Positions 3,618 through 42,288 of a DNA stretch of 64,000 nt are shown one piece after another. The notes under the pieces were generated by a model. That model saw only the letters and a program-made list of their open reading frames with translations, searched no databases and was not told the DNA's origin. Position 1 is the stretch's first letter; each line of letters begins with the position of its first letter. This stretch comes from Diplosphaera chodatii. Lineage: Eukaryota > Chlorophyta > Trebouxiophyceae > Prasiolales > Stichococcaceae. The stretch is taken from positions 1 to 64,000 of the forward strand of contig JAALGY010000016.1 in NCBI GenBank assembly GCA_032358165.1, in the 5' to 3' direction. The position numbers and the translations under genes are program-made.

Positions 3618-3674
3618 AGACAGGGCGCTGTTAGGGGACCGGATTGCGCCGGGCGCAGCCCGGCCCCAGCACCC

Positions 3675-5640: not shown

Positions 5641-6083
5641 CGGCGGCGGCGCGGTGGGTAGCCCTCAGACCAGGGTGCAGCGGGTGGCAGGCTGGGGTGG
5701 TGTGGATGCTGGTGGCAGGCTGATGTTGGGAGCTGGCACTGCTGATGTGGGCAGTGCAGCACCACTGGAAGGTGGCACGTGCAGGCACGTGCCGCTCACG
5801 GCGATCGAAAGAGGGGGGCTGGGAAACGGGGTAGCTGATGCTGACGTGGCAGTGGCAACACGTGCAAGCACGTGCCGCTGGCGCTGGGGATGACGGGGAC
5901 GGTGGGGGCTTCAGTGGGTGCCTGCAGCAAAGCGGAGGACAACCGACAGCAGCTGCCTAAGCCTAGCGACGGGCGATGCCGGCGCGTAACGCGGCTGACG
6001 CACAGCTGAAGCCGGTGCAGGTGGCTGGCCGGGGTGTGGTTGGTATTCTCAAGCTGCCGGGGGTGGGGGTGGGGGTGGGGGTG

Positions 6084-6160: not shown

Positions 6161-6244
6161 TAGCTGGCGGGAGATGGGGGCGGCAGGAAGTAGCGACGAT
6201 AGGTGACGGGAAGCAGGTAGCAGGTGAGGGGAGGCTGGATATGG

Positions 6245-6505
6245 AATGGATAGCGGTAAGGGAAGTGCAAATAGCGATGGAAAAGGACCTTTGACCGGAA
6301 GGCTGTTTGTGTATTGCGTTTTTCAACGACTTATATACACAAACCATGGAGGGCAGATTGCCGAAGCAACCACTTGCATAGGGTGGGGTGGGTTGGTCCC
6401 ACACGGAACTAGACCCGAAACTTCCGCCACCGCCAGGGATCGAACCCGGTCCCTGAACGGTGTCCAATGAATGGATAGCGGTAAGGGAAGTGCAAATAGC
6501 GATGG
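6245..6505 (-). mobile_element. 225-bp element, copy A
   Basis: One full 225-bp unit plus a 36-bp repeat of its start: the marker AATGGATAGCGG occurs at 6245 and 6470. Sense is taken as the minus strand, where the T-arm-like GGGTTCGATCCC reads correctly and the 3' end is constant. The empty site is preserved in the duplicate at about 10638. Left flank GGCTGG and right flank TGGCAGG suggest a short TSD. No coding capacity. Confidence 0.88.
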
Positions 6506-9033: not shown

Positions 9034-9779
9034 TGCAGCAGGTGGCAGGCTGTGGGTGGTGGTGAGGATGGCAGGCTGGTGTTGGCGGCGGCGGCAGGCA
9101 GCGGGCAGCACCCAGGTCAGGGTGCAGCAGGTGGCAGGCTGAGGGTGGTGTGGGTGGTGGTGAGGATGGCAGGCTGGTGTTGGCGGCGGCGGCAGGCAGC
9201 GGGCAGCACCCAGGTCAGGGTGCAGCAGGTGGCAGGCTGTGGGTGGTGTGGATGGCGGTGAGGATGGCAGGCTGGCGTTGGCGGCGGCGGCAGGCAGCGG
9301 GCAGCACCCAGATCAGGGTGCAGCAGGTGGCAGGCTGTGGGTGGTGTGGATGGTGGTGAAGGCGGCAGGCTTGTGTTGGCGGCGGCGGCGGGCGGCGGGC
9401 AGCACTCAGGCGAGGGTGCAGCAGATGGCAGGCTGAGGGTGTGTGGATGGTGACGACGGCAGGCTGGCGTTGGCGGCGGCGGCAGGCGGCGGGTGGCACT
9501 CAGATCAAGGTGCAGCAGGTGGCAGGCTGTGGGTGGTGTGGATGGTGGTGAGGACGGCAGGCTGGTGTTGGCGGCGGCGGCAGGCGGCGGGCGGCACTCA
9601 GACCAGGGTGCAGCAGGTGGCAGGCTGTGGGTGGTGTGGGTGGTGGTGAGGATGGCAAGCTGGTGTTGGCGGCGGCGGCAGGCAGCGGGCAGCACCCAGG
9701 TCAGGGTGCAGCAGGTGGCAGGCTGAGGGTGTTGCGGATGCTGGTGAAGGCGGCAGGCTGGTGTTGGCGGCGGCGGCGG
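9034..9779. repeat. 98-bp minisatellite, block 3
   Basis: About seven units continue directly after the 5' junction of LINE1 copy b. The array then degenerates (GGCGGCGGCGGCGCGGCGGG) into duplication block B. Frames open through it (for example 9117-10052, minus) are repeat artefacts. Confidence 0.88.
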
Positions 9780-10035
9780 CGCGGCGGGTAGCCCCTCAGA
9801 CCAGGGTGCAGCGGGTGGCAGGCTGGGGTGGTGTGGATGCTGGTGGCAGGCTGATGTTGGGAGCTGGCACTGCTGATGTGGGCAGTGCAGAACGCCGAAG
9901 GGCAGGTGGCACGTGCAGGCACGTGCCGAGGACGGCGATCGAAAGGGGGGGCTGGGAAACGGGGTAGCTGATGCTGACGTGGCAGTGGCAACACGTGCCA
10001 GCACGTGCCGCTGGCGCTGGGGATGATGGCGCTGG

Positions 10036-10278
10036 CCCTTACCGCTATCCATTCATTGGACACCGTTCAGGGACCGGGTTCGATCCCTGGCGGTGGCGGA
10101 AGTTTCGGGTCTAGTTCCGTGTGGGACCAACCCACCCCACCCTATGCAAGTGGTTGCTTCGGCAATCTGCCCTCCATGGTTTGTGTATATAAGTCGTTGA
10201 AAAACGCAATACACAAACAGCCTTCCGGTCAAAGGTCCTTTTCCATCGCTATTTGCACTTCCCTTACCGCTATCCATT
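10036..10278 (+). mobile_element. 225-bp element, copy B
   Basis: Here the sense strand is plus. The marker CCGCTATCCATT ends at 10053 and again at 10278, exactly 225 bp apart, so an 18-bp partial unit precedes a full unit. The T-arm-like GGGTTCGATCCC lies near 10078. The corresponding site in block A (near 5890) is empty. Confidence 0.88.
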
Positions 10279-10483
10279 CCATGCTGGGGACGGTGGGGGC
10301 TTCAGTGGGCGCCTGCAGCAAAGCGGAGGACAACCGACAGCAGGAAAGCGCAGCGACGGGCGATGAACGTTGCCGATGCCGGCGCGCAACGCGACTGACG
10401 CACAGCTGAAGCCGGTGCGGGTGGCTGGCCGGGGTGTGGTTGGTATTCTCAAGCTGCCGGGGGTGGGGGTGGGGGTGGGGGTG

Positions 10484-12064: not shown

Positions 12065-13553
12065 TTTGTTTGGAATGGATAGCGGTAAGGGAAGTGCAAA
12101 TAGCGATGGAAAAGGACCTTTGACCGGAAGGCTGTTTGTGTATTGCGTTTTTCAACGACTTATATACACAAACCATGGAGGGCAGATTGCCGAAGCAACC
12201 ACTTGCATAGGGTGGGGTGGGTTGGTCCCACACGGAACTAGACCCGAAACTTCCGCCACCGCCAGGGATCGAACCCGGTCCCTGAACGGTGTCCAATGAA
12301 TGGATAGCGGTAAGGGAAGTGCAAATTGTTTGTTTGTTTGTTTTTTACAAAGGGCGTCCAGACCAGAACCAAGCTCAAGAACAAGGCTCTGCGGCACAAT
12401 GCGGCTTCTCACGCGTGCACGTGAGGGCGGCGAAAGAATGACATGTCACACAACAGGTGTCGAACTGTGCAGATGGAGGACACTGAAACCGCAAGGGAAT
12501 GCAGGGCCCATGAGACCAGCGCAAGGCAATAGTCCCGATGAGGAAGTCTAAGCTGCATGGATGCAAACAGGCTGCAAAGGCTAAGAAGCGCGAGATCAGC
12601 AACGCCAACAACGCGGTCCAATCACCCAGGCCACAAATGCAATGTCTAGATCTACGTGACTCCATGTGACTCCACGTGATGTCACCAAAACTGTTGGATT
12701 GCTACGACCGCCGCTGATGCGGCCGGAGCCAGCGGCAGACTGCGGCAGTCGCAGCTGCGGCCAGCGGCGGCGGCGGCAACTGGCGATGGTGAAGCTGCGC
12801 GGCTGAGCAGGCAGCACACCCCGATATGACATTGTGACACAGCCGCGGGTATGTGCATCTGCAGTCTGAGAAGAACGGTCTGTGAGTGTCGGCTGTCGAT
12901 GGCATGGCGGCGCAGCTGATGCCAGACGCCAGGCTACAGCAGGCTCCCCCAAACCGCTGCAAACCGGATCCGACAAGAGCCAAGGCGCTGCAGAAGCTGC
13001 GGAGGTGGATGCTGTGCGCCGCTGAACGCTAGATGTGCGCCTGGCCGCTACAGGGTGACCAAGCCTGCAGCAGCGCAGTCGCGCATGCGGCGCAGGCGGC
13101 TGAAGCGGCTGCTGTGAAGGCTGATGGCGGGCTAACGGCTGTCAGAGCGTATCATGACGCCGTGTGTGATGGCTGCAGAGCTGTGATGACGCCGGCCAGG
13201 CTGTGAAGGCGGTTTCCGAAACCGCTGTGCTGCGGGATCCCTGCTGATCGCCAAACCGAACTGCCCCCGAAGTCCGGCTAGCGACGCACGGCCGGCTGCA
13301 GGCGGCTCCTATGACGATGTAGAAGCTGCTGAAGGTGATGGTGAAGGCGTAGTACCGTAAAGGACGGCGCGAAGGGGCTGGCCTGTGGAGGCGTGCTGGG
13401 TGGTTTGGGGGTCGGAGGCGGCGGCTGTGGACTTTCCGTTTGAGCGCTTGCGATTGACGACGATGAGGAAGGTGTTGAGTGGCTGTGTGAGCGTAGAAGC
13501 GGTGTGGACGTCAGGTTCGGCTGGTAGAGGTGTTGTGCTGCCGGGATGGCAAC
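12065..13553 (-). mobile_element. T1 element 1 (with nested 225-bp element)
   Basis: The minus-strand 3' end reads GGACGCCCTTTGTAAAAAAC followed by CAAA repeats, which are interrupted by a 225-bp element at 12074-12326. The body matches T1 copies at 18279-19652 and 22160-23783. The 5' part, with the hairpin, is missing: the copy stops at GGATGGCAACACTT, where the tail of a second T1 begins. No coding region is convincing. Confidence 0.82.
12074..12326 (-). mobile_element. 225-bp element, copy C
   Basis: The unit start AATGGATAGCGG occurs at 12074 and 12299 (225 bp apart), with 28 bp of a second unit. It sits inside the GTTT/CAAA microsatellite tail of T1. The uninterrupted tail is seen at 22160 and 39059. 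Confidence 0.87.
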
Positions 13554-14385
13554 ACTTGTTTGTTTGTTTGTTTGTTTTTTACAAAGGGCGTCCAGACCAG
13601 AACCAAGCTCAAGACAAGGCTCTGCGGCACAATGCGGCGTCTCACGTGTGAACGTGAGGGCGGCGAAAGAATGACATGTCAAGTGTCGAACTGTGCAGAT
13701 GAAGGACACTGAAACCACAAGGGAATGCAGGGCCCATGAGACCAGCGCAAGGCAATAGTCCCGATGAGGAAGTCTAAGCTGCATGGATGCAAACGTGTTG
13801 CAAAGGCTAAGAAGCGCGAGATCAGCAACGCCAACAACGCGGTCCAATCACCCAGGCCACAAATGCAATGACTAGATCTAGTGTGATTTCATATGACTCC
13901 ACGTGATGTTACCAAAACTGCTGGAATGCTATGACCGCTGCTGATGCGGCCGGAGCTAGCGACAGACTGCGGCAATGGCAGCTGCGGCAAGCGGCGGCGG
14001 CAGCAGCTAGCGATGATGAAGTTGCGCGGCTGAGGAGGCAGCACACGCCGATATGACACTGTGACACAGCCACGGGTATGTGCATCTGCAGTCTGAGAAG
14101 AATGGTGTGTGAGTGTCGGCTGTCGATGGCAAGGCGGCGCAGCTGATGCCAGACGCCAGTCTACAGCAGGCTCCCCCAAACCGCTGCAAACCGGATCTGA
14201 CAAGAGCCAAGGCGCTGCTGGAGCTGCGTAGATGGATGCTGTGCGCCGCTGAACGCCAGATGTGCGCCTAGCCGCTACAGGGCGACCAAGCCTGCAGCAG
14301 TGCAGTCGCGCATGCGGCGCAGGCGGCTGAAGCGGCTGCTGTGAAGGCTGATGGCGGGCTAACGGCTAGCAGAGCGTAGGGGTAT
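13554..14385 (-). mobile_element. T1 element 2, truncated
   Basis: A second T1 in the same orientation, with its CAAA tail abutting T1 element 1. It runs to about 14385 (AGCAGAGCGTA) and then switches abruptly to the 92-bp minisatellite. Compared with the full copy at 18279-19652, the 5' third is absent. No gene seen. Confidence 0.78.
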
Positions 14386-14793
14386 GGGACCGAAAGTGAA
14401 GGTGAAGGCGACGGCGGGTGCCGGCAGGTGAGGTGTGAGGGTGTAGGTGACGGTGAGCGGCGGTGGGAGTCCAGGATGGGACCGAAAGTGAAGGTGAAGG
14501 CGACGGCGGGTGCTGGCAGGTGGGGTGTGAGGGTGTAGGCGAAGGTGAGCGGCGGTGGGAGTCCAGGATGGGACCGAAAGTGAAGGTGAAGGCGACGGCG
14601 GGTGCTGGCAGGTGAGGTGTGAGGGGGTAGGTGACGGTGAGCGGCGGTGGGAGTCCAGGATGGGACCGAAAGTGAAGGTGAAGGCGACGGCGGGTGCTGG
14701 CAGGTGAGGTGTGAGGGTGTAGGTGAAGGTGAGCGGCGGTGGGAGTCCAGGATGGGACCGAAAATGAAGGTAAAGGCGACGGCGGGTGCTGAC
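14386..14793. repeat. 92-bp minisatellite, block 1
   Basis: About 4.5 units. The landmark GTGGGAGTCCAGGATGG recurs at 14463, 14555 and 14647 (exactly 92 bp). The unit reads Pro/His/Ser/Thr-rich in every minus-strand frame without stops, so open frames here are not genes. Confidence 0.92.
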
Positions 14794-14802
14794 AGGTGAG
14801 GT

Positions 14803-15529
14803 GTTTGTTTGTTTGTTTGTTTGTTTTTTACAAAGGGCGTCCAGACCAGAACCAAGCTCAAGAACAAGGCTCTGCGGCACAATGCGGCTTCTCACGTGTG
14901 AACGTGAGGGCGGCTGAGTATGTCATCAAAACGTCATGTTCGAAATATGTCGATGGAGGACACTGAAACCACAAGGGAATGCAGGGCCCATGAGACCAGC
15001 GAAAGGCAATAGTCCCGATGAGGAAGGCTACCTAATGGTCGTACAGGTGCGGGGACCTAGCGGCGGCGGCAGCAATGCCACGCACTCGCGGCGAAGTCGC
15101 ACCGCTGCGGGTCTATCACTCTAGAAATGTCAAAACGTCTGTCTGTCCACGTGCCACGGCACCCGCGGGTAAACCCAGAAAACCCCGCGCAGACATGCAG
15201 GGACCGGTTGCGTACAAGTACGCCGAGCTCTGGGCCCGCTGGGACCGGATACGCCGCGAGGCGCCCTGCATGCTGGTGAAAGCAACCAAGCCCAAAGGGA
15301 CTGAGGGCTGGCGCTGGCAATCAACAGAGGGCTGGCGGCTGACGCCGCAAGCTGTCCGATATGCACAACACCGGGCACCAGGGTCTTCTGAGGCAGGTGC
15401 TCCCATCCGCGCGGGCTCCGCGGGTGGCCGCTGCTAGGTGTTGTCATGCTACTAAGGTCTTGGTCTTGGTCTTGCTCTTGTTCTTGATCTTGGCCCAGTG
15501 CTGACAGGGCAGATGAGGTACGGGCGCAT
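14803..15529 (-). mobile_element. T2 element 1, complete with TSD
   Basis: A 727-bp retroelement read on the minus strand, with the 3' end TTTGTAAAAAAC plus CAAA repeats at 14803-14830. It is flanked by the 9-bp TSD AGGTGAGGT (14794-14802 and 15530-15538) inside the 92-bp minisatellite. The last 200 bp or so resemble T1 closely, while the 5' part is unrelated to T1. A frame on the opposite strand is conserved (15075-15437). Confidence 0.85.
15075..15437 (+). CDS. Conserved 120-codon frame antisense to T2
   Basis: The frame encodes a basic N-terminus (GKPRKPRAD) and a Trp-rich part (YAELWARWDRIRREAP, GWRWQSTEGWRL). Identical or near-identical frames occur in T2 at 26959-27321 and, N-terminally shortened, at 24714-24956 and 17701-17479 (minus). 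Between copies the changes AAG/AAA and ACT/ACA in ATKPKGTEG are third-position silent, while one Ser/Thr replacement is conservative. That hints at past coding constraint. I do not recognise the family. It may be a captured host exon, or only an open frame in GC-rich DNA. Confidence 0.35.
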   Translation: MPRTRGEVAPLRVYHSRNVKTSVCPRATAPAGKPRKPRADMQGPVAYKYAELWARWDRIRREAPCMLVKATKPKGTEGWRWQSTEGWRLTPQAVRYAQHRAPGSSEAGAPIRAGSAGGRC

Positions 15530-22159: not shown

Positions 22160-23783
22160 TTTGTTTGTTTGTTTGTTTGTTTGTTTTTTACAAAGGGCGT
22201 CCAGACCAGAACCAAGCTCAAGAACAAGGCTCTGCGGCACAATGCGGCGTCTCACGTGTGCACGTGAGGGCGGCGAAAGAATGACATGTCACACAACAGG
22301 TGTCGAACTGTGCAGATGGAGGACACTGAAACCGCAAGGGAATGCAGGGCCCATGAGACCAGCGCAAGGCAATAGTCCCGATGAGGAAGTCTAAGCTGCA
22401 TGGAATGGATAGCGGTAAGGGAAGTGCAAATAGCGATGGAAAAGGACCTTTGACCGGAAGGCTGTTTGTGTATTGCGTTTTTCAACGACTTATATACACA
22501 AACCATGGAGGGCAGATTGCCGAAGCAACCACTTGCATAGGGTGGGGTGGGTTGGTCCCACACGGAACTAGACCCGAAACTTCCGCCACCGCCAGGGATC
22601 GAACCCGGTCCCTGAACGGTGTCCAATGAATGGATAGCGGTGCATGGATGCAAACAGGCTGCAAAGGCTAAGAAGCGCGAGATCAGCAACGCCAACAACG
22701 CGGTCCAATCACCCAGGCCACAAATGCAATGTCTAGATCTACGTGACTCCATGTGACTCCACGTGATGTCACCAAAACTGTTGGATTGCTATGACCGCCG
22801 CTGATGCGGCCGGAGCCAGCGGCAGACTGCGGCAGTGGCAGCTGCGGCCAGCGGCGGCGGCGGCAACTGGCGATGGTGAAGCTGCGCGGCTGAGGAGGCA
22901 GCACACGCCGATATGACATTGTGACACAGCCGCGGGTATGTGCATCTGCAGTCTGAGAAGAACGGTCTGTGAGTGTCGGCTGTCGATGGCATGGCGGCGC
23001 AGCTGATGCCAGACGCCAGGCTACAGCAGGCTCCCCCAAACCGCTGCAAACCGGATCCGACAAGAGCCAAGGCGCTGCAGAAGCTGCGGAGGTGGATGCT
23101 GTGCGCCGCTAACGCTAGATGTGCGCCTGGCCGCTACAGGGTGACCAAGCCTGCAGCAGCGCAGTCGCGCATGCGGCGCAGGCGGCTGAAGCGGCTGCTG
23201 TGAAGGCTGATGGCGGGCTAACGGCTGTCAGAGCGTATCATGACGCCGTGTGTGATGGCTGCAGAGCTGTGATGACGCCGGCCAGGCTGTGAAGGCGGTT
23301 TCCGAAACCGCTGTGCTGCGGGATCCCTGCTGATCGCCAAACCGAACTGCCCCCGAAGTCCGGCTAGCGACGCACGGCCGGCTGCAGGCGGCTCCTATGA
23401 CGATGTAGAAGCTGCTGAAGGTGATGGTGAAGGCGTAGTACCGTAAAGGACGGCGCGAAGGGGCTGGCCTGTGGAGGCGTGCTGGGTGGTTTGGGGGTCG
23501 GAGGCGGCGGCTGTGGACTTTCCGTTTGAGCGCTTGCGATTGACGACGATGAGGAAGGTGTTGAGTGGCTGTGTGAGCGTAGAAGCGGTGTGGACGTCAG
23601 GTTCGGCTGGTAGAGGTGTTGTGCTGCCGGGATGGCAACACTTGGGCTGCTGAGATGGGCCGCAAGGCTGGCGCGCTGCTAGTGGAGGCAAGCAAGAGTG
23701 GCGAAGGCGATGACGATGCGTATGGAAGCAGCGGCAGGCCGTGCCAGGGGGCCGCTCCCCCTGGCACGGTGAAAACGGAAAAG
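22160..23783 (-). mobile_element. T1 element 4, full-length, with nested 225-bp element
   Basis: The minus-strand element has its CAAA tail at 22160-22190 and its 5' hairpin at about 23739-23769. The 11-bp TSD CGAGCAGCGGT (22149-22159 and 23784-23794) sits in LINE2 ORF1. Without the 225-bp copy (22404-22640) its length is about 1380 bp, matching T1 element 3. LINE2 copies a and c carry T1 at exactly the same site. Confidence 0.88.
22404..22640 (-). mobile_element. 225-bp element, copy D (clearest TSD)
   Basis: AATGGATAGCGG occurs at 22404 and 22629 (225 bp), with only 12 bp of the second unit. The TSD TGCATGG is at 22397-22403 and 22641-22647. The empty site AGCTGCATGGATGC is seen at 12551 and 39297. 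Confidence 0.92.
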
Positions 23784-25266: not shown

Positions 25267-26885
25267 GTTTTTCACCGTGCCAGGGGGAGCGGCCCCCTGG
25301 CACGGCCTGCCGCTGCTCTCATACGCATCGTCATCGCCTTCGCCACTCTTGCTTGCCTCCGCGAGCAGCGCGCCAGCCTTGCGGCCCATCTCAGCAGCCC
25401 AAACTGTTGCCATCCCGGCAGCACAACACCCCTACCAGCCAAACCTGACGTCCACACCGCTTCTACGCTCACACAGCCACTGATCACCTTCCTCATCGTC
25501 GTCAACCGCAAGCGCTCAAACGAAAAGTCCACAGTCGCCGCCTCCGACCCCCAAACCACCCAGCACGCCTCCACAGGCCAGCCCCTTCACGCCGTCTCCT
25601 ACGGTTCTACACCTTCACCATCACCTTCAGCAGCTTCTACGTCGTCATAGAAGCCGCCTGCAGCCGGCCCTGCGTCGCCAGCCGGACTTCGGGGGCGGTT
25701 CGGTTTGGCGATCAGCAGGGATCCCGCAGCACAGCGGTTTCGGAAACCGCCTTCACAGCCTGGCCGGCGTTATCACAGCTCTGCAGCCATCACACACGGC
25801 GTCATGATACGCTCTGACAGCCGTTAGCCCGCCATCAGCCTTCACAGCAGCCGCTTCAGCCGCCTGCGCCGCATGCGCGACTGCGCTGCTGCAGGCTTGG
25901 TCACCCTGTAGCGGCTAGGCGCACATCCGGCTTTCAGCGGCGCACAGCATCCATCTACGCAGCTCCAGCAGCGCCTTGGCTCTTGTCAGATTCGGTTTGC
26001 AGCGGTTTGGGGGAGCCTGCTGTAGACTGGCGTCTGGCATCAGCTGCGCCGCCTTGCCATCGACAGCCGACACTCACAGACCATTCTGCTCAGACTGCAG
26101 ATGCACATACCCGCGGCTGTGTCACAGTGTCATATCGGCGTGTGCTGCCTCCTCAGCCGCGCAGCTTCACCATCGCCAGCTGCCGCCGCCGCCGCTGGCC
26201 GCAGCTGCCATTGCCGCAGTCTGCCGCTAGCTCCGGCCGCATCAGCGGCGGTCATAGCAATCCAGCAGTATCGATGGCATCACGTAGAGTCACACGGAAT
26301 CACATAGATCTAGACATTGCATTTGTGGCCTGGGTGATTGGACCGCGTTGTGGATGGATAGCGGTAAGGGAAGTGCAAATAGCGATGGAAAAGGACCTTT
26401 GACCGGAAGGCTGTTTGTGTATTGCGTTTTTCAACGACTTATATACACAAACCATGGAGGGCAGATTGCCGAAGCAACCACTTGCATAGGGTGGGGTGGG
26501 TTGGTCCCACACGGAACTAGACCCGAAACTTCCGCCACCGCCAGGGATCGAACCCGGTCCCTGAACGGTGTCCAATGAATGGATAGCGGTAAGGGAAGTT
26601 GTTGGCGTTGCTGATCTCGCGCTTCTTAGCCTTTGCAGCACGTTTGCATCCATGTAGCTTAGACTTCCTCACCGGGACTATTGCCTTGCGCTGGTCTCAT
26701 GGACCCTGCATTCCCTTGTGGTTTCAGTGTCCTCCATCTGCACAGTTCGACACTTGATGTGCGACATGACATTCTTTCGCCGCCCTCACGTTCACACGTG
26801 AGACGCCGCATTGTGCCGCAGAGCCTTGCTCTTGAGCTTGGTTCTGGTCTGGACGCCCTCTGTAAAAAACAAACAAACAAAAAAA
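25267..26885 (+). mobile_element. T1 element 5, with nested 225-bp element
   Basis: Plus orientation: 5' hairpin at about 25277-25307, tail GTAAAAAACAAAC plus an A-rich run ending at 26885. The TSD AAAGGCAATAGTC (13 bp) is at 25254-25266 and 26886-26898 inside T2. Without the 225-bp copy it is about 1.37 kb. Confidence 0.87.
26353..26599 (-). mobile_element. 225-bp element, copy E
   Basis: Unit starts at 26353 and 26578 (225 bp), with about 22 bp of a second unit. Flanks GCGTTGTGG and AAGTTGTTGG give the probable 5-bp TSD GTTGT. The empty site in other T1 copies reads GCGTTGTTGGCG. Confidence 0.88.
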
Positions 26886-27321: not shown

Positions 27322-27448
27322 GTGTTGTCATGCTACTAAGGTCTTGGTCTTGGTCTTGCTCTTGTTCTTGATCTTGGCCCAGTGCTGACAGGGCAGATGA
27401 GGTACGCGTATACAGGTGAGGGTGAGTGGTGGTGGGGGACCAGGATGG

Positions 27449-27728
27449 AATGGAAAGCGGTAAGGGAAGTTGCAAATAGCGATGGAAAAGAGAACCTTTG
27501 ACCGGAAGGATGTTTGTGTATTGCGTTTTTCAACGACTTATATACACAAACAATGGAGGGCAGATTGCCGAGGCAACCACTTGCATAGGGTGGGGTGGGT
27601 TGGTCCCGCACGGAACTAGACCCGAAACTTCCGCCACCGTCAGGGATCGAACCGAGTCCCTCACGATGTCCAATGAATGGAAAGCGGTAAGGGAAGTTGC
27701 AAATAGCGATGGAAAAGAGAACCTTTGA
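27449..27728 (-). mobile_element. 225-bp element, copy F (diverged subfamily)
   Basis: A variant with AATGGAAAGCGG, GAAGTTGC and a two-base longer unit (starts at 27449 and 27676, 227 bp), plus 53 bp of a second unit ending AACCTTTGA. GATGG flanks both sides in the 92-bp minisatellite. It carries coordinated differences, so it is an older or separate subfamily. Confidence 0.87.
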
Positions 27729-30026
27729 TGGGACCGAAGGTGAAGGTGAAGGCGACGGCGGGTGCTGGCAGGTGGGGTGTGAGGGTGTAGGCGAAGGTGA
27801 GCGGCGGTGGGAGTCCAGGATGGGACCGAAAGTGAAGGTGAAGGCGACGGCGGGTGCTGGCAGGTGAGGTGGGAGGGTGTAGGTGACGGTGAGTGGCGGT
27901 GGGAGTCCAGGATGGGATAGACGGCGACGGTGAAGGCGACGGCGGGTGCTGACAGGTGAGGTGTGAGGGTGTAGGTGAGGGTGAGCGGCGGTGGGAGTCC
28001 GGTATGGGACCGAAAGTGAAGGTGATGGCGACGGCGGGTGCTGGCAGGTGAGGTGTGAGGGTGTAGGTGAGGGTGAGCGGTGGTGGGAGTCCGGTATGGG
28101 ACCGAAAGTGAAGGTGAAGGCGACGGCGGGTGCTGGCAGGTGAGGTGGGAGGGTGTAGGCGAAGGTGAGCGGCGGTGGGAGTCCAGGATGGGACCGAAAG
28201 TGAAGGTGAAGGCGACGGCGGGTGCTGGCAGGTGAGGTGGGAGGGTGTAGGTGACGGTGAGTGGCGGTGGGAGTCCAGGATGGGATAGACGGCGACGGTG
28301 AAGGCGACGGCGGGTGCTGACAGGTGAGGTGTGAGGGTGTAGGTGAGGGTGAGCGGCGGTGGGAGTCCGGTATGGGACCGAAAGTGAAGGTGATGGCGAC
28401 GGCGGGTGCTGGCAGGTGAGGTGTGAGGGTGTAGGTGAGGGTGAGCGGCGGTGGGAGTCCGGTATGGGACCGAAAGTGAAGGTGATGGCGACGGCGGGTG
28501 CTGGCAGGTGAGGTGTGAGGGTGTAGGTGAGGGTGAGCGGCGGTGGGAGTCCGGTATGGGACCGAAAGTGAAGGTGAAGGCGACGGCGGGTGCTGGCAGG
28601 TGAGGTGTGAGGGTGTAGGTGAGGGTGAGCGGCGGTGGGAGTCCGGTATGGGACCGAAAGTGAAGGTGAAGGCGACGGCGGGTGCCGGCAGATGAGGTGT
28701 GAGGGTGTAGGTGACGGTGAGCGGCGGTGGGAGTCCAGGATGGGACCGAAAGTGAAGGGGAAGGCGACGGCGGGTGCTGGCAGGTGGGGTGTGAGGGTGT
28801 AGGCGAAGGTGAGCGGCGGTGGGAGTCCAGGATGGGACCGAAAGTGAAGGTGAAGGCGACGGCGGGTGCTGGCAGGTGAGGTGGGAGGGTGTAGGCGAGG
28901 GTGAGTGGCGGTGGGAGTCTGGGATGGGACCGAAGGTGACGGTGAAGGCGACGGCGGGTGCTGGCAGGTGAGGTGTGAGGGTGTAGGTGAGGGTGAGCGG
29001 CGGTGGGAGTCTGGTATGGGACCGAAAGTGAAGGTGAAGGCGACGGCGGGTGCTGGCAGGTGAGGTGGGAGGGTGTAGGTGAGGGTGAGCGGCGGTGGGA
29101 GTCCGGGATGGGACCGAAAGTGAAGGTGAAGGCGACGGCGGGTGCCGGCAGGTGAGGTGTGAGGGTGTAGGTGACGGTGAGCGGCGGTGGGAGTCCAGGA
29201 TGGGACCGAAAGTGAAGGTGAAGGCGACGGCGGGTGCTGGCAGGTGAGGTGTGAGGGTGTAGGCGAAGGTGAGCGGCGGGGGGAGTCCGGGATGGGACCG
29301 AAAGTGAAGGTGAAGGCGACGGCGGGTGCTGACAGGTGAGGTGTGAGGGTGTAGGTGAGGGTGAGCGGCGGTGGGAGTCCGGTATGGGACCGAAAGTGAA
29401 GGTGATGGCGACGGCGGGTGCTGGCAGGTGAGGTGTGAGGGTGTAGGTGAGGGTGAGCGGCGGTGGGAGTCCAGGATGGGACCGAAAGTGAAGGTGAAGG
29501 CGACGGCGGGTGCTGGCAGGTGAGGTGTGAGGGTGTAGGCGAAGGTGAGCGGCGGGGGGAGTCCGGGATGGGACCGAAAGTGAAGGTGAAGGCGACGGCG
29601 GGTGCTGACAGGTGAGGTGTGAGGGTGTAGGTGAGGGTGAGCGGCGGTGGGAGTCCGGTATGGGACCGAAAGTGAAGGTGATGGCGACGGCGGGTGCTGG
29701 CAGGTGAGGTGTGAGGGTGTAGGTGAGGGTGAGCGGCGGTGGGGGTCCGGCATGGGACCGAAAGTGAAGGTGAAGGCGACGGCGGGTGCCGGCAGGTGAG
29801 GTGTGAGGGTGTAGGTGAGGGTGAGCGGCGGTGGGAGTCCAGGATGGGATAGACGGCGACGGTGAAGGCGACGGCGGGTGCTGACAGGTGAGGTGTGAGG
29901 GTGTAGGTGAGGGTGAGCGGCGGTGGGAGTCCGGTATGGGACCGAAAGTGAAGGTGAAGGCGACGGCGGGTGCCGGCAGATGAGGTGTGAGGGTGTAGGT
30001 GACGGTGAGCGGCGGTGGGAGTCCAG
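27729..30026. repeat. 92-bp minisatellite, main array (about 25 units)
   Basis: Tandem units with GTGGGAGTCCAGGATGGGAC and GTGCTGGCAGGTGAGG, differing by a few recurrent variants (GTCCGG for GTCCAGG; a GATAGACGGCGACGG variant that removes the usual GACCGAAAGTG). It is bracketed by 225-bp copies F and G. Minus-strand frames of 805, 840 and 939 codons cross it in all three frames. They result from a stop-free unit whose length is not a multiple of three. Confidence 0.94.
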
Positions 30027-30336
30027 GATGGATAGCGGTAAGGGAAGTGCAAATAGCGATGGAAAAGGACCTTTGACCGGAAGGCTGTTTGTGTATTGCG
30101 TTTTTCAACGACTTATATACACAAACCATGGAGGGCAGATTGCCGAAGCAACCACTTGCATAGGGTGGGGTGGGTTGGTCCCACACGGAACTAGACCCGA
30201 AACTTCCGCCACCGCCAGGGATCGAACCCGGTCCCTGAACGGTGTCCAATGAATGGATAGCGGTAAGGGAAGTGCAAATAGCGATGGAAAAGGACCTTTG
30301 ACCGGAAGGCTGTTTGTGTATTGCGTTTTTCAACGA
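30027..30336 (-). mobile_element. 225-bp element, copy G (longest second unit)
   Basis: Unit starts at 30027 and 30252 (225 bp). The second unit continues 85 bp to TTTTTCAACGA before the minisatellite resumes. This is the longest head-to-tail extension in the window. Confidence 0.9.
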
Positions 30337-30506: not shown

Positions 30507-33500
30507 TCAGATGAGTTGGAGGCGCGGTGGGGAGGCAGCCGTCGGGGGTGGTTGCTGCGATGTTTGCGGCGGGGGTCCAGGGCGGGACTCAGGCTGGGGC
30601 TGAGGTTGGCGCTGAGGCTGTGGACGTGATTGTGACTGTGGCTGTGGACGTACAGCTGGCAGCGGCACTGGGTGAGTGGCCGTCCAGCGGACGACAAGGT
30701 CTCGGCCGTTCATGCTGCAGAGGCCGCTCGCGATCCAGATCCTTTTGAAGTCGGTCATGGGGTTGTTGTCGTCGTCAATCTGCTGGCCTCGCTGAGCTCC
30801 AGTCATGTGCGCGTCGCACTGCTGTGCTAGCTCCGTGGGGGACGTGTAGGCGGCAGTGAACTCGGTGCGCATCGACTGCACGGCGGAGTGGAGGGTGGCG
30901 GCGGCGATAGATGTAGATGAGGGTGTGGGGCCACCATGGTGGACAGCACAGTGGGCGTCCCAGGCCTTCTGTAGGTAGGTGACCCGAAGCCGGGTCCACA
31001 GCTCAACGTCGAGGCGGCCAGGGTGCCAGGCAGTGGGGTCGCCGGCGATGATGACGTCAGGAGTGGTTGGGGGTGTGTGGCCGCCGTCGATGGCAGCCCA
31101 CAAGTCGCAGAGCCACTGGAGGGCAGGGCGTGTGAGTGGGCAGTGGAGGAGGACGTGGGTGGTGTTGGCAACGGTGGTGGGCTGCAGGGTGGCAGGGTTG
31201 TTGACGAGCGGGGTACGGCAAGCCGGCCAGCGGCAGCAGGCCCTCTGCATGGGGGTGTCACCTGACATGTCAACAGCGGCGTGCTTATAGCGGCAGTAGG
31301 TGAGGAAGGATGGTGTGCGGAGTTGGCAGTGAAGGGCTCGCCAGGCGACGGCAACATCGGCCTTGCGGATGTTGGTGCCGCAGAGCTGTTCCCAGCAACG
31401 GCGGTACTTGGAGGCGACGGCAGGGGCGGTGTTGTCCTGAGGAGGATGGCGTGATTGGTGGGGCCGGCGAGTGTGTGCTTGGGGCCGCTGCTGTGGGTCG
31501 CGGGCCCGTGTCGCCATAGCGTGCACGCTTGGTTGGGGCCCTGTGATGGCGATGAAGCATGGGAGACGGTGTGGAGCTGCCGTTGGCGAGGGCGAGTCAG
31601 GGCGTGGGGAGCTAGGTGTGGGTTGGTCGGCAGGGGGTGGGGAGTCTGGCTGAGTCGGCTGAGTGGGCGTCGGAGAAGTGGAGTGGGGTGCAGCAGCTGC
31701 TGTTACCGCCAGTGGTGCCTGCGGGGAGGTGCGTGTAACCCAGTCTGGGTGGTCGATGTGGTCCCGCTGAGCCGTGCGGTGCTGCTGGGCCTCGGTGATG
31801 ACGGCATGCTCGGCGGCCTCGACGTGAGCGTAGCCTGGGGCGAACCAACGAGGGATGGCTGTGGGCTGCGTGGTGGCCAAGGTGATGCGGCCTTGCTGGA
31901 GAAGCTCCGACTCCAGGAGGTGTGCCGTTCCAAGGGAGACCTCGTACTCCATGAGGTTGCGGTCTTCTTCGCCGTAGCCGTAGATGTCGGGGACGATGGT
32001 CAGATCAGCGAGCTCGGCAAGGAAGTAGGGGCGATCCATCTTCTTGTGAGCGGGCACGTCACTGTCGTTCCCGTCGGCCGATGGCGCTGCGCCAGCAGCC
32101 GCGCGGTGTGCGGGAGGTGACCACATGACGAGATGGCAGGGTTGCCAGGGGGGCTGGGCGTCGAGGAGTGAGGCAGCGTCGTCATGGGCAACGAGGCTGT
32201 GGTCGAAGCGCACGCGGTAGAGTCGATCATCGCCCTGGCGGCGCACGAAGCGGTGGGCAGAGTCAACCTCCCACTGCTCCGAGACGTCGATTGACGGAGG
32301 AGGTCCTGTGCCTGGGGCATCAGACGGGTGCGGGGGCGGCGGGTGGTACGGCGGGAGCCAGACACCAGCCGCACGCAGGCACACTTCCCACGCTGGGGGT
32401 TGGTGTGGGGCAAGGGCCAAGGCTGTGGTGGAGGGCGTGACGTCCGGCTGCTGAAGTGGGGGAGGCGGCAGAGGCGGGGGTGGCGGCAGAGGTGCGGGTG
32501 GCGGAAGCACTTGGCTTGGTGGGGAGGCGTGTGTACGAGGCGGACTGCGGTTGCGACGTCGGCTGCGGGCGGCAGCGGCGGTGGTGATGGCAGTGCTGGG
32601 TGCGCTGGAGGAGGTCGTTGAGTGACCGGCTGTGGTGGTTGGTGGCGGAGGGTCGGGCATGGCAGCCGCCTGAGATGCCAGGGCGTCTCTGACCAGCTGC
32701 AGGCTGTACATGGCGATGCGCTGCCCAAGTGGTGCATCCAGGCCGAGGAGGTGTTCCTGGTGGCGGGCGGCGATGTGGGCGAGGGCGTCCAGGTGGTACG
32801 TGTGTCGGATGATGTCGAGTGTGATGGGGACAGATTGTCGTGCGAACACTCCTCTGAGTGCCTGCACATGCTGAACAAAGGCTGGCGGGCGGGGGAAGGC
32901 GTGGGCGTCAGGGCGGGCGGCGAGTGGCATGTGGACGGCGTCGAGGATGAGAGGCATGTACAGCCAGGAGTTGGTGGGGCGACGGCAGGCTGGCAATGTG
33001 GCGTGGTCGTGGACGACGCAATCCGGCACAAGGGAGGGGAGGCGGCGGCGTTGTGGTGGGGGGCAGGTGGTAGGGGTGCGGGCCGCTCGTCGTCGGTGAC
33101 CAGTGAGCTGTGTGGTCGGCGGAGTGGGCCGAGTTGCAAGGGTCAGTGGAGGATCGTGCGGGCGAGGTGGCGGCGGCAGTGGGGTGCTTGCCAAGGGTGC
33201 TGCGGCTGAGGCGTCTGCGGCGGGTGCAGGCTCACGTGGGCTGGTCGTCGTGGGCGGTGATGTCGCTGGAGGGTCCGGAGGGTGTGTGCCTGGCTGGCGT
33301 GGTGTATGGGGTGTGGCTGGTGGCATTGGCAGCGGAACGCTGCGAGTCGACTGCCGAGGCGGCAGTGGGGCGACGGGAAGGGCTGCCATGTCCGCCTGGT
33401 TGGTGTTCGCCTCGAGCGCTAGCCGCATGGTGGCATCAAGGGAGGCACGGATGACGGCAAGGTCCCCGCGTGCGACGGCAGCGAACTGGGGGTCGCCCTC

Positions 33501-35125
33501 GATGGCTGCCCGCAAGTCGCCAAGGGACCAGAGGCCAAGGGATGCAGCTCCGATGAGGTCGGCGTCGTGGGCAATAGGGTCAGCGATGGCGCGCTGGCTG
33601 AAGAATAGGCGATCTCGCATGACGAGGCGGTGTGTATGCTGCTGCTCTGGGTCCAGGTTGCGCCCAATCCCGATGCGGTGAGCAGCCGCGACGCCGTCGC
33701 GCAGGCGTGGCGGGAGCGATGGCACAGTGGCGATGTTGAGAGTGGATGCCATGATGGCAGGTCCGAGGCCCCAGCGGTGAAGGGCTCGGGCTGGCGCGTC
33801 GGTGTGGGGGATGGAGGATGCCGGAGCTCGCATGAGGTGAAAGCTGTGAATGGACTTCCACACTGCTGGCGTCGGCTGGAACAGGCGGAACGCTCGCTTC
33901 GCTGCCAGGGCGGTGGCGAAGAGCTCAAGGGAGGGGGCGCCAGCGCCACCAACTCGTCGTGAGAGGCCGCACACAAGTCGCTTCGGGTTGCAGTTGGCGG
34001 AGAGGGGGTCGGTGTTGTAGCGATTGCGACTGACGTAGCCGTAGATGAGGGTGTTGAGCTTTGCCAGTTGGGTGGCTGTGAAGGAGTCGAAGCTGAGGAG
34101 GTGCACCAGCTGCGACTGCAGGTTCTGCTTGCCGACGTACGCCCGTCCAAAGAAGGAGATGGCGTGCTTGGACCACTGCAGGATCGCCTTGCCGATAAGG
34201 CCGATCCGGGAGTTGATCTTGTGCTGGCGAGCGTCGATAGCGTCGCTGCCGCAGCCGACGATGACGCCCAAGTGGTTGACATATGTGTGGTGTGGGGTGT
34301 ATGTGATGCCGGTGGCGGCACTGGTGTGGGCGGGTTGCCGGGCAGCCGAGCCGAACAACAGGGACTTGGTCTTGGTGGGGTTGAGCTGGGCGCCCGAGGC
34401 GGCAGCGAAGGCGGCAACAGGTCCTTCGATGATCTTGTCGCAGTCCGCTGCGGAGGCGGCGTGGATGGTGGTGTCGTCGGCGTGCATGTGGCAAGGGGGA
34501 GCAGCTCCGCCAAAGGGGAGGGCGATGGGTTGCACGGCACCAGCGGCGACCATGCGTCGAGTGAGGGCGGCAAGAGTCTGGAGCTGCAGGATGTAGAGCA
34601 GTGACGAGGGGGGGCTGCCTTGGAGTGCGCCGCTGTTGATGGGAATGGGGTCGGTGGGGGCGCCGTTGACGCGGATGCGCCCAAGGGTGTCGGTCATAAA
34701 GAGGGCAGCCCAGCGCTGGGCGCCCTCTCCAAACCGCATGGCCTCCATGACCCTCAAGGTCCAGGCTCGGTCCATCCAGTCGAAGGCCTTGGCGAAGTCG
34801 AGGAAGAGCATGGCTCCATCGGTGTCATGGGTGGTGAGGAGGTCGGCGAGCTCGGTGTGGTTGAGGATGTTGTCGCCAATCCAGCGGCCGGGGAGGAAGC
34901 CAGTCTGTGTGGGGTCGATGACGGGTCCAAGGGCGTGGGCGAGGCGGGTGGCAAAGGCGCGGGAGGCGATCTTGACGTCGGCGTTGATGCCTGCAATAGG
35001 TCGGCGGTTGGCGAGGTCGCGGGCATCGCCTCGCTTTGGGACGAGGGTGTAGTCGGAGGTGCGCTGACGAGGCGACATGGTTGGCCGGGCACCAGCCGTG
35101 TGGCAGGCATTGAAGGCTCGTGTGG
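30507..35125 (-). pseudogene. LINE2 ORF2, reverse transcriptase and C-terminal part
   Basis: The frame is open for about 1,539 codons (first ATG 35078). Counting from that ATG, RT motifs are RRPIAGINADVKIA (25-38), LDFAKAFD (93-100), LQGSPPSSLL (152-161) and catalytic HADD (199-202). After the RT thumb follows a long Pro/Ala/Thr-rich region with acidic islands, then a Cys/His cluster (CCRWPAC ... THVLLHCP) and a Gln/Pro-rich end. It is cut from its endonuclease by the 225-bp insertion, which also changes the reading frame, so this copy is dead in cis. Without the insertion ORF2 would be about 2,100 residues, very long for a LINE. Confidence 0.87.
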
Positions 35126-35351
35126 AATGGATAGCGGTAAGGGAAGTGCAAATAGCGATGGAAAAGGACCTTTGACCGGAAGGCTGTTTGTGTATTGCGT
35201 TTTTTCAACGACTTATATACACAAACCATGGAGGGCAGATTGCCGAAGCAACCACTTGCATAGGGTGGGGTGGGTTGGTCCCACACGGAACTAGACCCGA
35301 AACTTCCGCCACCGCCAGGGATCGAACCCGGTCCCTGAACGGTGTCCAATG
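35126..35351 (-). mobile_element. 225-bp element, copy H (breaks LINE2 ORF2)
   Basis: A single full unit (226 bp, one extra T in the TTTTTT run) without a second unit. GTGTG on both sides is the probable 5-bp TSD. It lies between endonuclease and RT and shifts the frame. Removing it restores a continuous PLTRAF junction. Confidence 0.88.
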
Positions 35352-37065
35352 AGGGTGTGAGAGGGAGGCCGAGCTTGCCCCAGAGTTGGACGTACAGCTC
35401 AGCTGGCAGGCCGTCCGGACCAGGGCTCTTGCCGCGTTGTGCCGCGCGGGCGGCGGCCGTGAGCTCCTTGTGTGTGAGTGGCTCGTCGCAGGCGGCAGCA
35501 TCGGCGGCAGCGACGGTGGCGTCAAGGGAGGCAAGGAGCTGGTCCTGAGCGGCGCGGCATGTTGGGCGGACGGCGAAGTGGCGGGTGTAGTGGTCGGCGA
35601 TGAGCTGCTTGGCGTGGGCGAGGCCGTTGGCCGTGTCAAGGCCGACATACATGCCATTGCTGGAGTCCAGCACCGAGGTGAAGGTGGTGTCGCTGAAGTG
35701 GCGGGGGTCGCAGCGAGCGTGGAAGTAGTGAGTGGGCTTCTCGAAGAACATGAGCTCCAACGCCCGGGCGCGATCGAGTGCAAGCTGGGCGTGGCGGTCG
35801 TGGTGGGCTTGCAGGGCGTCGGCAGCGGTGTGGAAGGCGGCGCGTGCGGCGTCGCGAGCATTGTCTGTCGCAGCGATGGGCAGCTGAGAAGCTGCAAAGG
35901 CGACGGCCTCTTGCAGGTGCCGAAGCTCCAGGCGTCTGCGACGTGTGTCGGCGGCAGTGCGCCGCTGGGCGAGCAGGCGGATGCACGAAAGCATGTCCTC
36001 CAACAGCCCTTGCGGGTCGGTGTCGCGCAGCTCCGGGGGAGCGGCGCCTTCGTCGGGAGAGGGCGAGGCGTGCCGGCTTGCGGCGGCCAGGAGGCGGAGG
36101 AAGTCGGCGGCCCGGCGCGAGGAGTCTTGCTGATGGAGCCTGTCGGCCATGAGGCGGTCGAGGGCATTTTCCAGCTCAGTGACGAAGTCGGCGTCTGCGA
36201 GGAGGGGGAGGGGGAAGCGCCATGGTGGGCGAGCCCGCAGCACGGAACCGGGGAGCGTGAAGGCGAAGGTGACGCCGCGGTGGTCGCTGTGGAAGTCGTC
36301 AACGATGGTGGCGTGTGGTTGATGGTGGAGGAGGGCCTCAGCGACTAGCCACTTGTCGAGTCGAGAGGCGCCGTGGTCGGCATTGCGAGAGACGAAGGAG
36401 AAGTCGGTGGCAGGGTGGGGATGGCAGTGCCGCCAGGCATCAGCCAGGCCGGCGGAGGTGGCGAGGTGTTGCAGCTCAGGGGCGCCGACCAGTCGACCGG
36501 ATCGCTGGCTAGCGGTGGGGGTGGCATCATGGACGGTGTCGATGCAGTTGAAGTCGCCGCACAAGAGGACCGTGCGGTGGCTGTCGGCGGACGGCAGGTC
36601 TCCGGCAAGGGTGGGGATGAAGGCCAGGCGTGGGTGTTGATCGCATGGCGTGTAGGCGGTGATGACGGAGTACAGGTGACCATGGAGTGCGAAGTCGACG
36701 CGAAGTCGGCGGCCGTCGTCTGTGCTGGGGCCGACTTCGTCAACGGCAGTGCAGCCGCAGGACTCGCGGATGAGGATGGCCACCCCGGCGGTGGCGCGTC
36801 GGCGCCGTTCGCCGGGATCAGTGGTGGCGGCGGGGCCCCGCCGCCAGAAGGACCAGCCTGGCCAGGGCTGGCCCGGGGCCGCCCCCGTTTGCGCCCACTG
36901 GTTGCCGTCGTCAGAGGCACGTTGATGTGTCTCTTGGAGGCAGATGACGTCCCAGGGCCCGTTGGTCAGCGTCGCGAAGAGAGCGCGGCGCTTGTCCAAG
37001 TCGGCGAGCCCGTTGACGTTCAGTGACAGCAGGCGCAGGCGGGGGCGGTCGGCGTGGGCGCTCAT
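35352..37065 (-). pseudogene. LINE2 ORF2, endonuclease part
   Basis: Starting at ATG 37065 the protein shows RLLSLNVNGL (11-20), catalytic LQET (E45), GDFN (170-173) and SDH (260-262), the signature of exonuclease-endonuclease-phosphatase nucleases used by LINEs to nick target DNA. A helical linker (LELRHLQEAVAFAASQLP and following) leads to the insertion point after about 570 residues. The start codon overlaps the stop of the upstream frame as ATGA. The catalytic residues are intact; the break comes from the 225-bp insertion. Confidence 0.88.
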
Positions 37066-37805
37066 GGCGCCCCGCCGCGGCGCCCTGCGGCGCCGCGGCC
37101 AGTCTGTGGGTCGAAGCCGGCGGCGGTGGATGCCCGGCCTGCAGCCCAGCGGGGCAGCGAGGGTAGCCAGTAGGCGCTGGGGCGGCTGCTGAGGCGGCCG
37201 CTCCTGGTGACTGTCGGGGAGGGTGACAGCGCGCCCTGGCTCCGTGTCACGGCCGCATGCGACCGCCAGGTGCCCGGCAGGTCGGCATCGTGGCGGGCGG
37301 CGCCTGTGCGGGGCGTGCGCTGCCGGCGAGGCTGCAGCCAGGGCTGCTCCGGCGGGGCTGGTGATGGCGAAGTGGTGAGGGGCACGGGGCCCGGCTCCCT
37401 GTTGCAACGGGCGATGTCGGCGAGGGTGGTCTGGCGGTTTGCCCAGTGGCAACGCCAGCGGTTGGTGGTTGCCGTGAGGAGATGGAGGGCGACGGGTGTC
37501 AGGGGGACGCCGTGTGAGCGGTGTCGGTCGAGGTCGGATGCTGGCAGGGAGGAGGCCCACTCGGTGAGGATGTGGTCGAGAGGGGCGTGAGCGTCTGTGC
37601 CGTCCACGTGCAATACCTCCGACAACAGGGCCAAGTGGCCCGCTTCCATGACACAGCTGTCGGGCATCGAGGCGATGGCCACGTCGACGTCTGTGTGGGG
37701 GACCCAGTGTCCGGCCGGTGGGCAGCTGTCGTCGTGGCGGCGAAGGATGCGGTCGAGTGATGGCCGCAGCGCGCCAGGGATGGCATGTCCATTACCGCAA
37801 GTGGT
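37062..37805 (-). CDS. LINE2 inter-ORF frame (ORF1 extension?)
   Basis: Open for 247 codons in the same frame as ORF1, separated from it only by a TGA (37806-37808). It encodes VAIASMPDSCVMEAGHLALL, LLTATTNRWRCHWANRQ and a Pro/Arg-rich tail, and ends in TGA overlapping the ORF2 ATG. The in-frame position suggests either stop readthrough or an ancestral single ORF1 with a nonsense mutation copied by duplication. Function unknown. Confidence 0.55.
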   Translation of the reverse strand, partial: TTCGNGHAIPGALRPSLDRILRRHDDSCPPAGHWVPHTDVDVAIASMPDSCVMEAGHLALLSEVLHVDGTDAHAPLDHILTEWASSLPASDLDRHRSHGVPLTPVALHLLTATTNRWRCHWANRQTTLADIARCNREPGPVPLTTSPSPAPPEQPWLQPRRQRTPRTGAARHDADLPGTWRSHAAVTRSQGALSPSPTVTRSGRLSSRPSAYWLPSLPRWAAGRASTAAGFDPQTGRGAAGRRGGAP

Positions 37806-40082: not shown

Positions 40083-40145
40083 TGGATAGCGGTAAGGGAA
40101 GTGCAGATAGCGATGGAAAAGGACCTTTGACCGGAAGGCTGTTTT
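40083..40145 (-). mobile_element. 225-bp element fragment
   Basis: About 62 bp from GGATAGCGGTAAGGG to GGAAGGCTGTTT, joined on the right to LINE1 sequence. One internal base differs (GCAGATAGCG). It marks the left breakpoint of the LINE1/T1 tandem array, presumably a recombination scar. Confidence 0.75.
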
Positions 40146-41549: not shown

Positions 41550-42288
41550 ATGGCAGCGACTTGCGCAAAGTGCGTGAGTGGCTGGGAGTCAGGGGCCCTG
41601 TGAACGGTGACAACTACCAGCTGGCCGGCTACTTGCAGGCAGTCGCCTCCAAGACCGGTCGTCGGCGGTTAGCACAGTTCCGGATGGGCAGTCACATGCT
41701 GGGGGTGGAAACAGGGAGGTGGCAGCGTCTGCCGCGGGCAGAGCGGCTGTGTCAGCGGTGTAGATGCGGCGTGGTGGATGATGAGGCGCACATGGTCTGG
41801 GGGTGTCCAGCTCTAGTAGATCAGAGGGTGCAGCATTCTGAGCTGTTTCAAGACAGCGACATCACCACACCCCGGTTCCGTGTGGGACCAACCCACCCCA
41901 CCCTATGCAAGTGGTTGCTTCGGCAATCTGCCCTCCATGGTTTGTGTATATAAGTCGTTGAAAAACGCAATACACAAACAGCCTTCCGGTCAAAGGTCCT
42001 TTTCCATCGCTATTTGCACTTCCCTTACCGCTATCCATTCCACCACAGTGGCGGACTTTATGCAGCAGGATGCCGGGCAACTGGCAGCCTTTTTGCGGGT
42101 TTGTCATGATCATTGTGCAGAGTTGGAGGGGTGTACATCCAACCGGGATTGAGTGGAACCATTCTGTCAGCGGGGAGTGAACGGTTTCGGACACGACTCG
42201 TTGTGCATGTTGCTCTGGGTTATTCCGCCAGAGCCTGTGGCTAGGCCAAAATGGCCCACCACCAGTATGTAATCAATGTCAATGTCAA
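41550..42288 (+). mobile_element. LINE1 copy e, inside T1, containing a 225-bp-family copy
   Basis: A 5'-truncated LINE1 starting at ATGGCAGCGACTTGCG and ending AATCAATGTCAATGTCAA. The 8-bp TSD TGCTGTGA is at 41542-41549 and 42289-42296. It contains a shortened 225-bp-family element at 41870-42040. Confidence 0.9.
41870..42040 (+). mobile_element. 225-bp element, copy J, internally truncated at 5'
   Basis: Only 171 bp: it begins at CCCCGGTTCCGTGTGG, lacks the T-arm-like region and keeps the constant 3' end CTATCCATTC. The TSD CACCACA (41863-41869 and 42041-42047) is confirmed by the empty site at 48590-48600. A 5'-truncated copy supports target-primed insertion with the plus strand as sense here. 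Confidence 0.9.

Follow-up and report, generated by a model that had tools for sequence, protein, structure and literature searches.

Metazoan non-LTR retrozymes are described as non-autonomous elements of about 170–400 nt that occur as circular and linear RNAs and whose genomic copies are longer than one unit (PMC7229834). Plant LTR retrozymes are non-autonomous circular-RNA retroelements for which cDNAs of different lengths have been proposed (PMC4918200), and they carry 300–400-bp repeats with hammerheads in the repeats and 4-bp target-site duplications (TSDs). Partial tandems and short TSDs are reported for Penelope-like elements (PMC3846280), whose enzymes begin synthesis within a stem-loop of the RNA and produce such tandems (PMC11167929, PMC3846280); a linear multimeric RNA has been proposed as their template. 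Finally, circRNA-derived pseudogenes are genomic retrocopies of circular RNAs (cited in PMC5408686); they derive from host transcripts and do not form an amplifying mobile family.

The element presented here was found in a 64-kb window, that is, the whole stretch of Diplosphaera chodatii DNA that was analysed. It opens contig C14 of a GC-rich 85.6-Mb assembly in 55 contigs. The family comprises a 225-bp unit (subfamily A) and a 227-bp unit (subfamily B), the latter about 93% identical to A. With the non-LTR retrozymes as described it shares unit size, non-autonomy and copies longer than one unit. A number of differences can be noted. Hammerheads are present in non-LTR retrozymes, whereas none was found in this element; their copies are multimeric, whereas those examined here consist of one unit plus a part of another, so that the size fits a 170–400-nt unit but, one complex B locus apart, clean dimers and longer multimers were not found. 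The element also has clear TSDs and repeat tails, and its circular RNA form is a proposal drawn from the genomic copies. From plant LTR retrozymes it differs by a variable repeat length and, again, by the hammerhead not found. Partial tandems and short TSDs recall Penelope-like elements, and a start at C2 in a predicted loop, suggested by the tails and a weak fold, may be a further likeness; by contrast, the element has neither an ORF nor a hammerhead. Finally, it resembles tRNA-type SINEs in being short and non-autonomous, and in its B-box-like motif, 5' truncation, tail repeats, TSDs and nesting with LINEs, but it has no A-box match, overshoots into a second unit and carries a tail that is not common to the local (CAAA)n LINEs. 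The element would work like non-LTR retrozymes and Penelope-like elements, yet the ribozyme by which a retrozyme is recognised was not found in it. An earlier note on this DNA considered that it may be undescribed. Retrozymes and the partial tandems of Penelope-like elements are already known, which limits that claim, but neither a ribozyme-free element of such a kind nor a lap-resolved analysis was recognised in titles and abstract openings of a largely non-subscription literature.

The element and its copies in the window

Matching places number 12 in the window (Table 1): the ten copies named in the earlier note, all recovered with overshoots that agree within a few bases, and two extra ones. 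All have one constant end and, truncated copies aside, the other end lies 0–84 nt past one unit, invariably head-to-tail, so the second unit does run in the same direction as the first, as had been claimed. On the minus strand, the constant end of most window copies reads ..CCGCTATCCATT, and the minus strand of most copies would be the RNA sense, 5'-TCATTGGACACC...CCGCTATCCAT-3' (positions 1–225). The overshoot of the subfamily B copy at 27448 is likewise of type B, and copy J is indeed truncated inside the unit. Chance is excluded by the 93–100% identity of the window copies to the unit and by a 25-base A core pattern that, with up to 2 mismatches, matches the genome 315 times, against 0 matches for the reversed pattern used as control. 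The subfamily B pattern (up to 1 mismatch) has 156 genome matches. The window also contains segmental duplications of several kb, over 99% identical (40148-47457), which include a duplicated element insertion.

Table 1. Positions of element copies, motifs and LINE frames in the 64-kb window
Feature	Position	Strand	Remarks
L1-type LINE ORF	162-3674	-	Endonuclease and reverse transcriptase domains; setting
Copy	6244-6505	-	Overshoot 35
Copy	10036-10279	+	Overshoot 17
Copy	12073-12326	-	Overshoot 27; target is the (TTTG)n tail of a LINE
Left target duplication of focal copy	22397-22404	+	TGCATGGA; empty site elsewhere in window
Focal copy	22405-22640	-	One 225-bp unit (22405-22629) and 12 nt overshoot
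Detail of focal copy	22629; 22630-22641		RNA-sense position 1; overshoot, final base common to target
Candidate promoter element TATATAAG	22489-22496	-	Unit positions 134-141, in longest predicted hairpin
B-box-like GGTTCGATCC	22596-22605	-	Unit positions 25-34, inside tRNA-like hairpin
Right target duplication of focal copy	22641-22648	+	TGCATGGA
Copy	26351-26599	-	Overshoot 21
Subfamily B copy	27448-27728	-	Overshoot 51 with own 227-bp unit, 49 on A scale
Copy	30028-30336	-	Overshoot 84
Second LINE	30510-37791	-	Reverse transcriptase frame 30510-35204, endonuclease frame 34828-37791
Copy	35125-35352	-	One unit, overshoot 0; TSD CACAC
5'-truncated copy	40083-40144	-	62 bp; absent from the earlier note
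Copy truncated within unit (copy J)	41875-42040	+	TSD CACCACA
Copy	43968-44217	-	Overshoot 25; TSD GCCGC; empty site 40726-40730
Segmental duplicate of copy J	45369-45534	+	Absent from the earlier note

Target duplications and tails

TSDs were read by comparing the filled site with an uninterrupted copy of the target among the fetched sequences, and such an empty-site comparison was obtained for 97 of the 112 copies longer than 100 bp. With 2–12 bp kept as the clean range, 63 of the 97 readings are clean, all of 2–9 bp with 5 the commonest, in agreement with the short TSDs described before on several copies. The remaining 34 readings gave 0, 1, negative, 13, 18 or nested-insertion values and come mostly from targets that are tandem repeats, microsatellites or nested elements. 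At the 3' junction, the first target base is C in 46 of the 63 clean cases, and the next base is A (26) or C (23). Among 161 distinct 3' tails, 152 start with CCA, and CCA stands directly after 0–2 complete CCATT repeats in 127 (n = 0: 45; n = 1: 68; n = 2: 14).

The same 3' end is found in insertions from 24 nt to 375 nt, so the constancy of one end, already remarked in the earlier note, extends to very short insertions. The short TSDs, the CCATT-repeat tails, the 5' truncation seen among element copies and the common 3' end point to target-primed reverse transcription, the mode of insertion that had been proposed. Two other origins of the RNA ends were considered and set aside. An RNA 3' end CCAUUCCA made by CCA addition was weighed because many tails end in CCA; it was dropped since a start at C2 and a 5-nt slip between two Cs would explain these tails without extra sequence. 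For a lariat RNA, splice-site sequence was looked for by eye and not noticed at the ends.

Stopping of the cDNA after one lap

The cDNA length from the start to the 5' end was expressed relative to one unit (z = 0). The A sample consists of 100 listed of the 315 matches plus 8 further loci, and the B sample of 60 stretches fetched from 100 listed of the 156 matches; 17 extra copies chosen for long overshoot were excluded from the rates. After 6 duplicates had been dropped, 5 nested, cut or complex rows were removed (181 to 176), giving 176 measured insertions of A and B. The A pattern can match only where about 100 nt of element are present, which leaves short A copies under-represented. Stopping rates refer only to cDNAs that exceed one unit less 118 nt, a length reached by 138 insertions.

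Of these 138, 20 stop before one lap and 118 after, and the pooled stopping rate per nt rises 26-fold, from 0.00134 before z = 0 to 0.0351 after. In subfamily A (n = 105), the best fit puts the change point at z = 0 (interval 0 to 1), with rates of 0.00104 per nt before it and 0.0345 after, and a natural-log likelihood gain of 120 over a constant rate. For the 33 copies of subfamily B, it falls at -3 (interval -5 to -3, excluding 0), and the rise is 16-fold at z = 0 and 20-fold at -3. Overshoots of at least 7 nt are present in 82/138 copies and the longest in this set is 152 nt, whereas at a constant first-lap rate only 18% would by calculation stop within 150 nt. About 20 further B copies stop at 55–78 nt, at or in the long hairpin; the B sampling pattern lies at the 3' end of the unit and these stops fall below the range used for rates. 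They mark a first-lap obstacle.

The variable end, which had been said to move continuously across the unit boundary, does so with continuously varying length, but its distribution is not even over two units. In the longer copies, the 5' ends are concentrated just past one unit. The fixed-length terminal repeats that the earlier note had contrasted with its proposal were not seen in this survey, and an LTR-type element (TRIM/SMART) was rejected since the length of the second unit varies continuously. No clean second full unit was seen among the surveyed A and B copies. Apparent full dimers at C7:983349 and at loci L123 and L127 were first taken as two laps; they contain extra element pieces, are read as nested insertions and were left out of the 176.

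One B locus, C37:156154-156762 (L170 and L171), spans more than two units and may be a tandem DNA duplication or two laps. Its two laps share a common change at position 134, and the junction carries an extra base.

The position of the stop also depends on the start. A start some bases further into the unit goes with a stop some bases further along. Measured against a fixed point on the unit, stops at -3 or less are found in 2/44 internal-start copies (n = 0) and in 21/77 C2-start or slipped copies (Fisher p = 0.0016), and near the lap the mean shift between start classes is about 2.8 nt (one-sided p = 0.006); as the classes were defined after the data had been seen, this shift is supporting evidence and not an independent proof. 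A stop edge that shifts with the start argues for an obstacle that derives from the cDNA's own start, whereas a fixed RNA 5' end predicts stops at the same place.

Junctions between units were compared in the 49 copies whose overshoot is 12 nt or longer. The exact 23-base unit junction is present in 46, and the three inexact ones comprise one substitution, the window B copy and one nested insertion. Whereas the number of CCATT repeats varies in 3' tails, the junctions show no such variation. Alleles could be followed in a small number of informative copies: the overshoot of the window B copy matches its own unit at four positions, an A6 indel (with 24 genome matches) is present in both laps of C1:1222061, and at B position 167 overshoot and unit are concordant in 3/3 independent non-nested copies, in one of them 3 nt from its 5' end. 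Single-site differences between overshoot and unit occur in a few copies (e.g. L183 and C13:1701117), which later mutation or copying errors would give.

Sequence motifs and predicted structure

The B-box-like GGTTCGATCC is present in both A and B by a looser pattern only; the strict B-box pattern and the A-box pattern have no match in the element. In an Rfam search with E up to 10, subfamily A matched the tRNA-like mascRNA below threshold (19.9 bits; cut-off 42.5). The two scanned B loci gave no such match, and another hit, to an unrelated microRNA, fell in the L089 flank. No known ribozyme was reported by Rfam at this threshold on A and B loci, the hammerhead core CTGANGA is absent from both strands of both units, and ARAGORN found no tRNA in the window. 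TATATAAG is a possible promoter element. Together with the tRNA-like hairpin and the B-box-like motif, it provides a candidate lead for transcription or processing only.

A hairpin UCCA-UUCAU-UGGA, with C2 in its loop, is predicted in the circular fold of both subfamilies. The circular folds are slightly better than those of shuffled sequences (z = -1.9 and -2.5); for A, the antisense strand yields a fold that is no worse (z = -2.7).

A probable circular template and its alternatives

Since nearly all longer copies end just after one lap, the template appears to be a circular RNA. The element is probably a short, non-autonomous retroelement with a circular, or functionally circular, one-unit RNA template of 225 or 227 nt. 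From the end positions, tails, TSDs, exact junctions and one-lap rate change observed in the copies, we infer the template RNA, its covalent closure, the formation of the circle and an acting reverse transcriptase. The primer would be a nicked end of the target DNA, mostly ..G-3' facing C and often ..TG-3' facing CA, and the priming site the loop of the small predicted hairpin, mostly C2 of CCAUUC|AUUGG. A 5-nt slippage between two C residues at the start may yield the CCATT-repeat tails. During the first lap, the enzyme would rarely stop except at a strong hairpin; after one lap it would run into its own cDNA paired with the RNA and add about 28 nt more on average, either displacing that strand or exhausting the template. 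Once the cDNA end is joined to the target, the insertion would consist of one unit and an overshoot of 0 to about 150 nt.

A change point at one lap would also be expected if linear monomer RNAs with ends near C2/A3 were copied and the enzyme jumped end-to-end onto another RNA, stopping soon after. Template jumping is known for R2-type enzymes, and if the hairpin kept a single nicked RNA together, a jump across the nick would be indistinguishable from a circle. A fresh RNA should, however, be copied at the low first-lap rate and thus give second units, which were not found. The end point also lacks a pile-up, as the frequency of overshoots of 7 nt or more indicates, the junctions do not share the tail variation of real 3' ends, and the stop edge moves with the start; this jumping is unlikely. 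The earlier note had allowed either a tandem or a circular RNA. On the tandem side, a dimeric or tandem master locus could yield linear RNAs whose 5' ends fall at various points of the upstream unit, each RNA being copied to its 5' end. The junctions would be inherited and exact, transcription from within the preceding unit could be driven by TATATAAG and the B-box-like motif, and Penelope-like elements are reported to be transcribed from tandem loci (PMC11167929). Nothing in such a locus, however, makes 5' ends begin exactly one unit from the cDNA start or shift with the start class. On a linear multimer, moreover, the stopping rate should stay steady, with no change at one lap, and overshoots match the subfamily and alleles of their own unit where informative. 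The 26-fold rise at one lap, together with a stop edge tied to the start, favours the circular over the tandem template, and a linear tandem template is likewise unlikely.

Alternatives that do without an RNA template fare worse. If a DNA polymerase copied a single-stranded DNA circle where a chromosome end is broken, the rate would likewise change at one lap, and microhomology at breaks could give CA-rich starts, but the short TSDs, 5-nt slippage tails, 5' truncations at a hairpin and nested reverse-transcriptase LINEs favour RNA; such a circle, though formally conceivable, is very unlikely. Recombination or duplication between neighbouring copies at the DNA level could produce partial tandems in a window where segmental duplication is frequent, and some apparent dimers did turn out to be nested insertions. 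The overshoots, however, are enclosed by the TSDs of insertions that arose independently at different targets; they stand on the 5' side in every case, and their lengths decay. Recombination as their source is highly improbable.

Several observations weaken the preferred model of a circular one-unit template: no known ribozyme or hammerhead core was found on the A and B loci, the folds are weak with the antisense strand folding at least as well, the tRNA-like match is missing from the two B loci scanned, the B change-point interval (-5 to -3) excludes 0, single-site differences separate some overshoots from their units, and L170/L171 has more than two units. For a circle without a known self-cleaving motif, host tRNA-type processing of the tRNA-like hairpin and a ligase could perhaps be called upon. 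The more specific picture, in which a ribozyme-free 225-nt RNA circle is DNA-primed in a hairpin loop, copied for slightly more than one lap and inserted almost only into centromere-like LINE clusters, is advanced tentatively, at somewhat less than even chances. If a ribozyme-free circle does exist, the genome keeps a record of lap completion at near single-nucleotide resolution. Whereas the retrozyme papers cited above make the case for a circular-RNA template from the RNA side and a model, genomic copies here carry a quantitative signature, namely a rate change at one lap and a stop edge that follows the start. The template topology of retroelements thus becomes testable from sequence alone, an approach applicable to retrozymes, Penelope-like elements and SINEs.

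LINE clusters around the element

The DNA around the element consists of nested L1-type LINEs and tandem arrays, and a homology search with the LINE ORF gave 24 relatives. Among the 100 A matches listed of 315, 99 are confined to a single stretch, no longer than 100 kb, on their contig (12 contigs), the exception being C1:1522576; a second stray, C10:1313552, was met with a rarer pattern. In Coccomyxa, Zepp is reported to form one nested-L1 cluster per chromosome (PMC3446292), and in Chlamydomonas, Zepp-like elements form one L1 cluster per chromosome (PMC8226300); in both cases, the clusters were taken as centromeres. The likeness to the clusters of these two accounts is one of layout, one nested L1-type LINE cluster per chromosome, and what the two papers describe in this respect is a LINE and not a short element with a circular template. 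By this comparison, the element-bearing LINE clusters may be centromeres. Given its location at presumed green-algal centromere sites, the putative circles and the insertions of the element may be relevant to how centromeres turn over.

The local LINEs would be the nearest source of reverse transcriptase, though their tails differ, being (CAAA)n. Their TSDs gave 15 readings, 12 of them positive at 3–24 bp and several unclear. The fetched sequences, which cover a small part of the genome, contained no partner LINE with a CCATT tail and a single chance-like CCATTCCATT. A GIY-YIG search of the assembly returned one match, on contig C55.

The LINE nest also holds tandem repeats. A 92-bp family occupies 27727-30031 and 14384-14804 of the window, its longest array counting 25 units, and a 98-bp family lies at 4032-5714 and 9051-9845. 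At 54857-55015, a (CAAA)n tract reaches about 38 copies and thereby greatly exceeds the usual local LINE tails. The starts of C14, C16 and C17 and the end of C22 lie within or near clusters, so some assembly breaks probably fall in repeats. At L140 (C21:1850473-1850973), a B copy adjoins an interstitial telomere-like (AACCCTA)n within a LINE cluster. Finally, on contig C22 (about 1362346-1415803), B copies form oppositely oriented pairs, one about every 5.1 kb as far as the end of the contig (1415963), a spacing that suggests a higher-order tandem array in that cluster.
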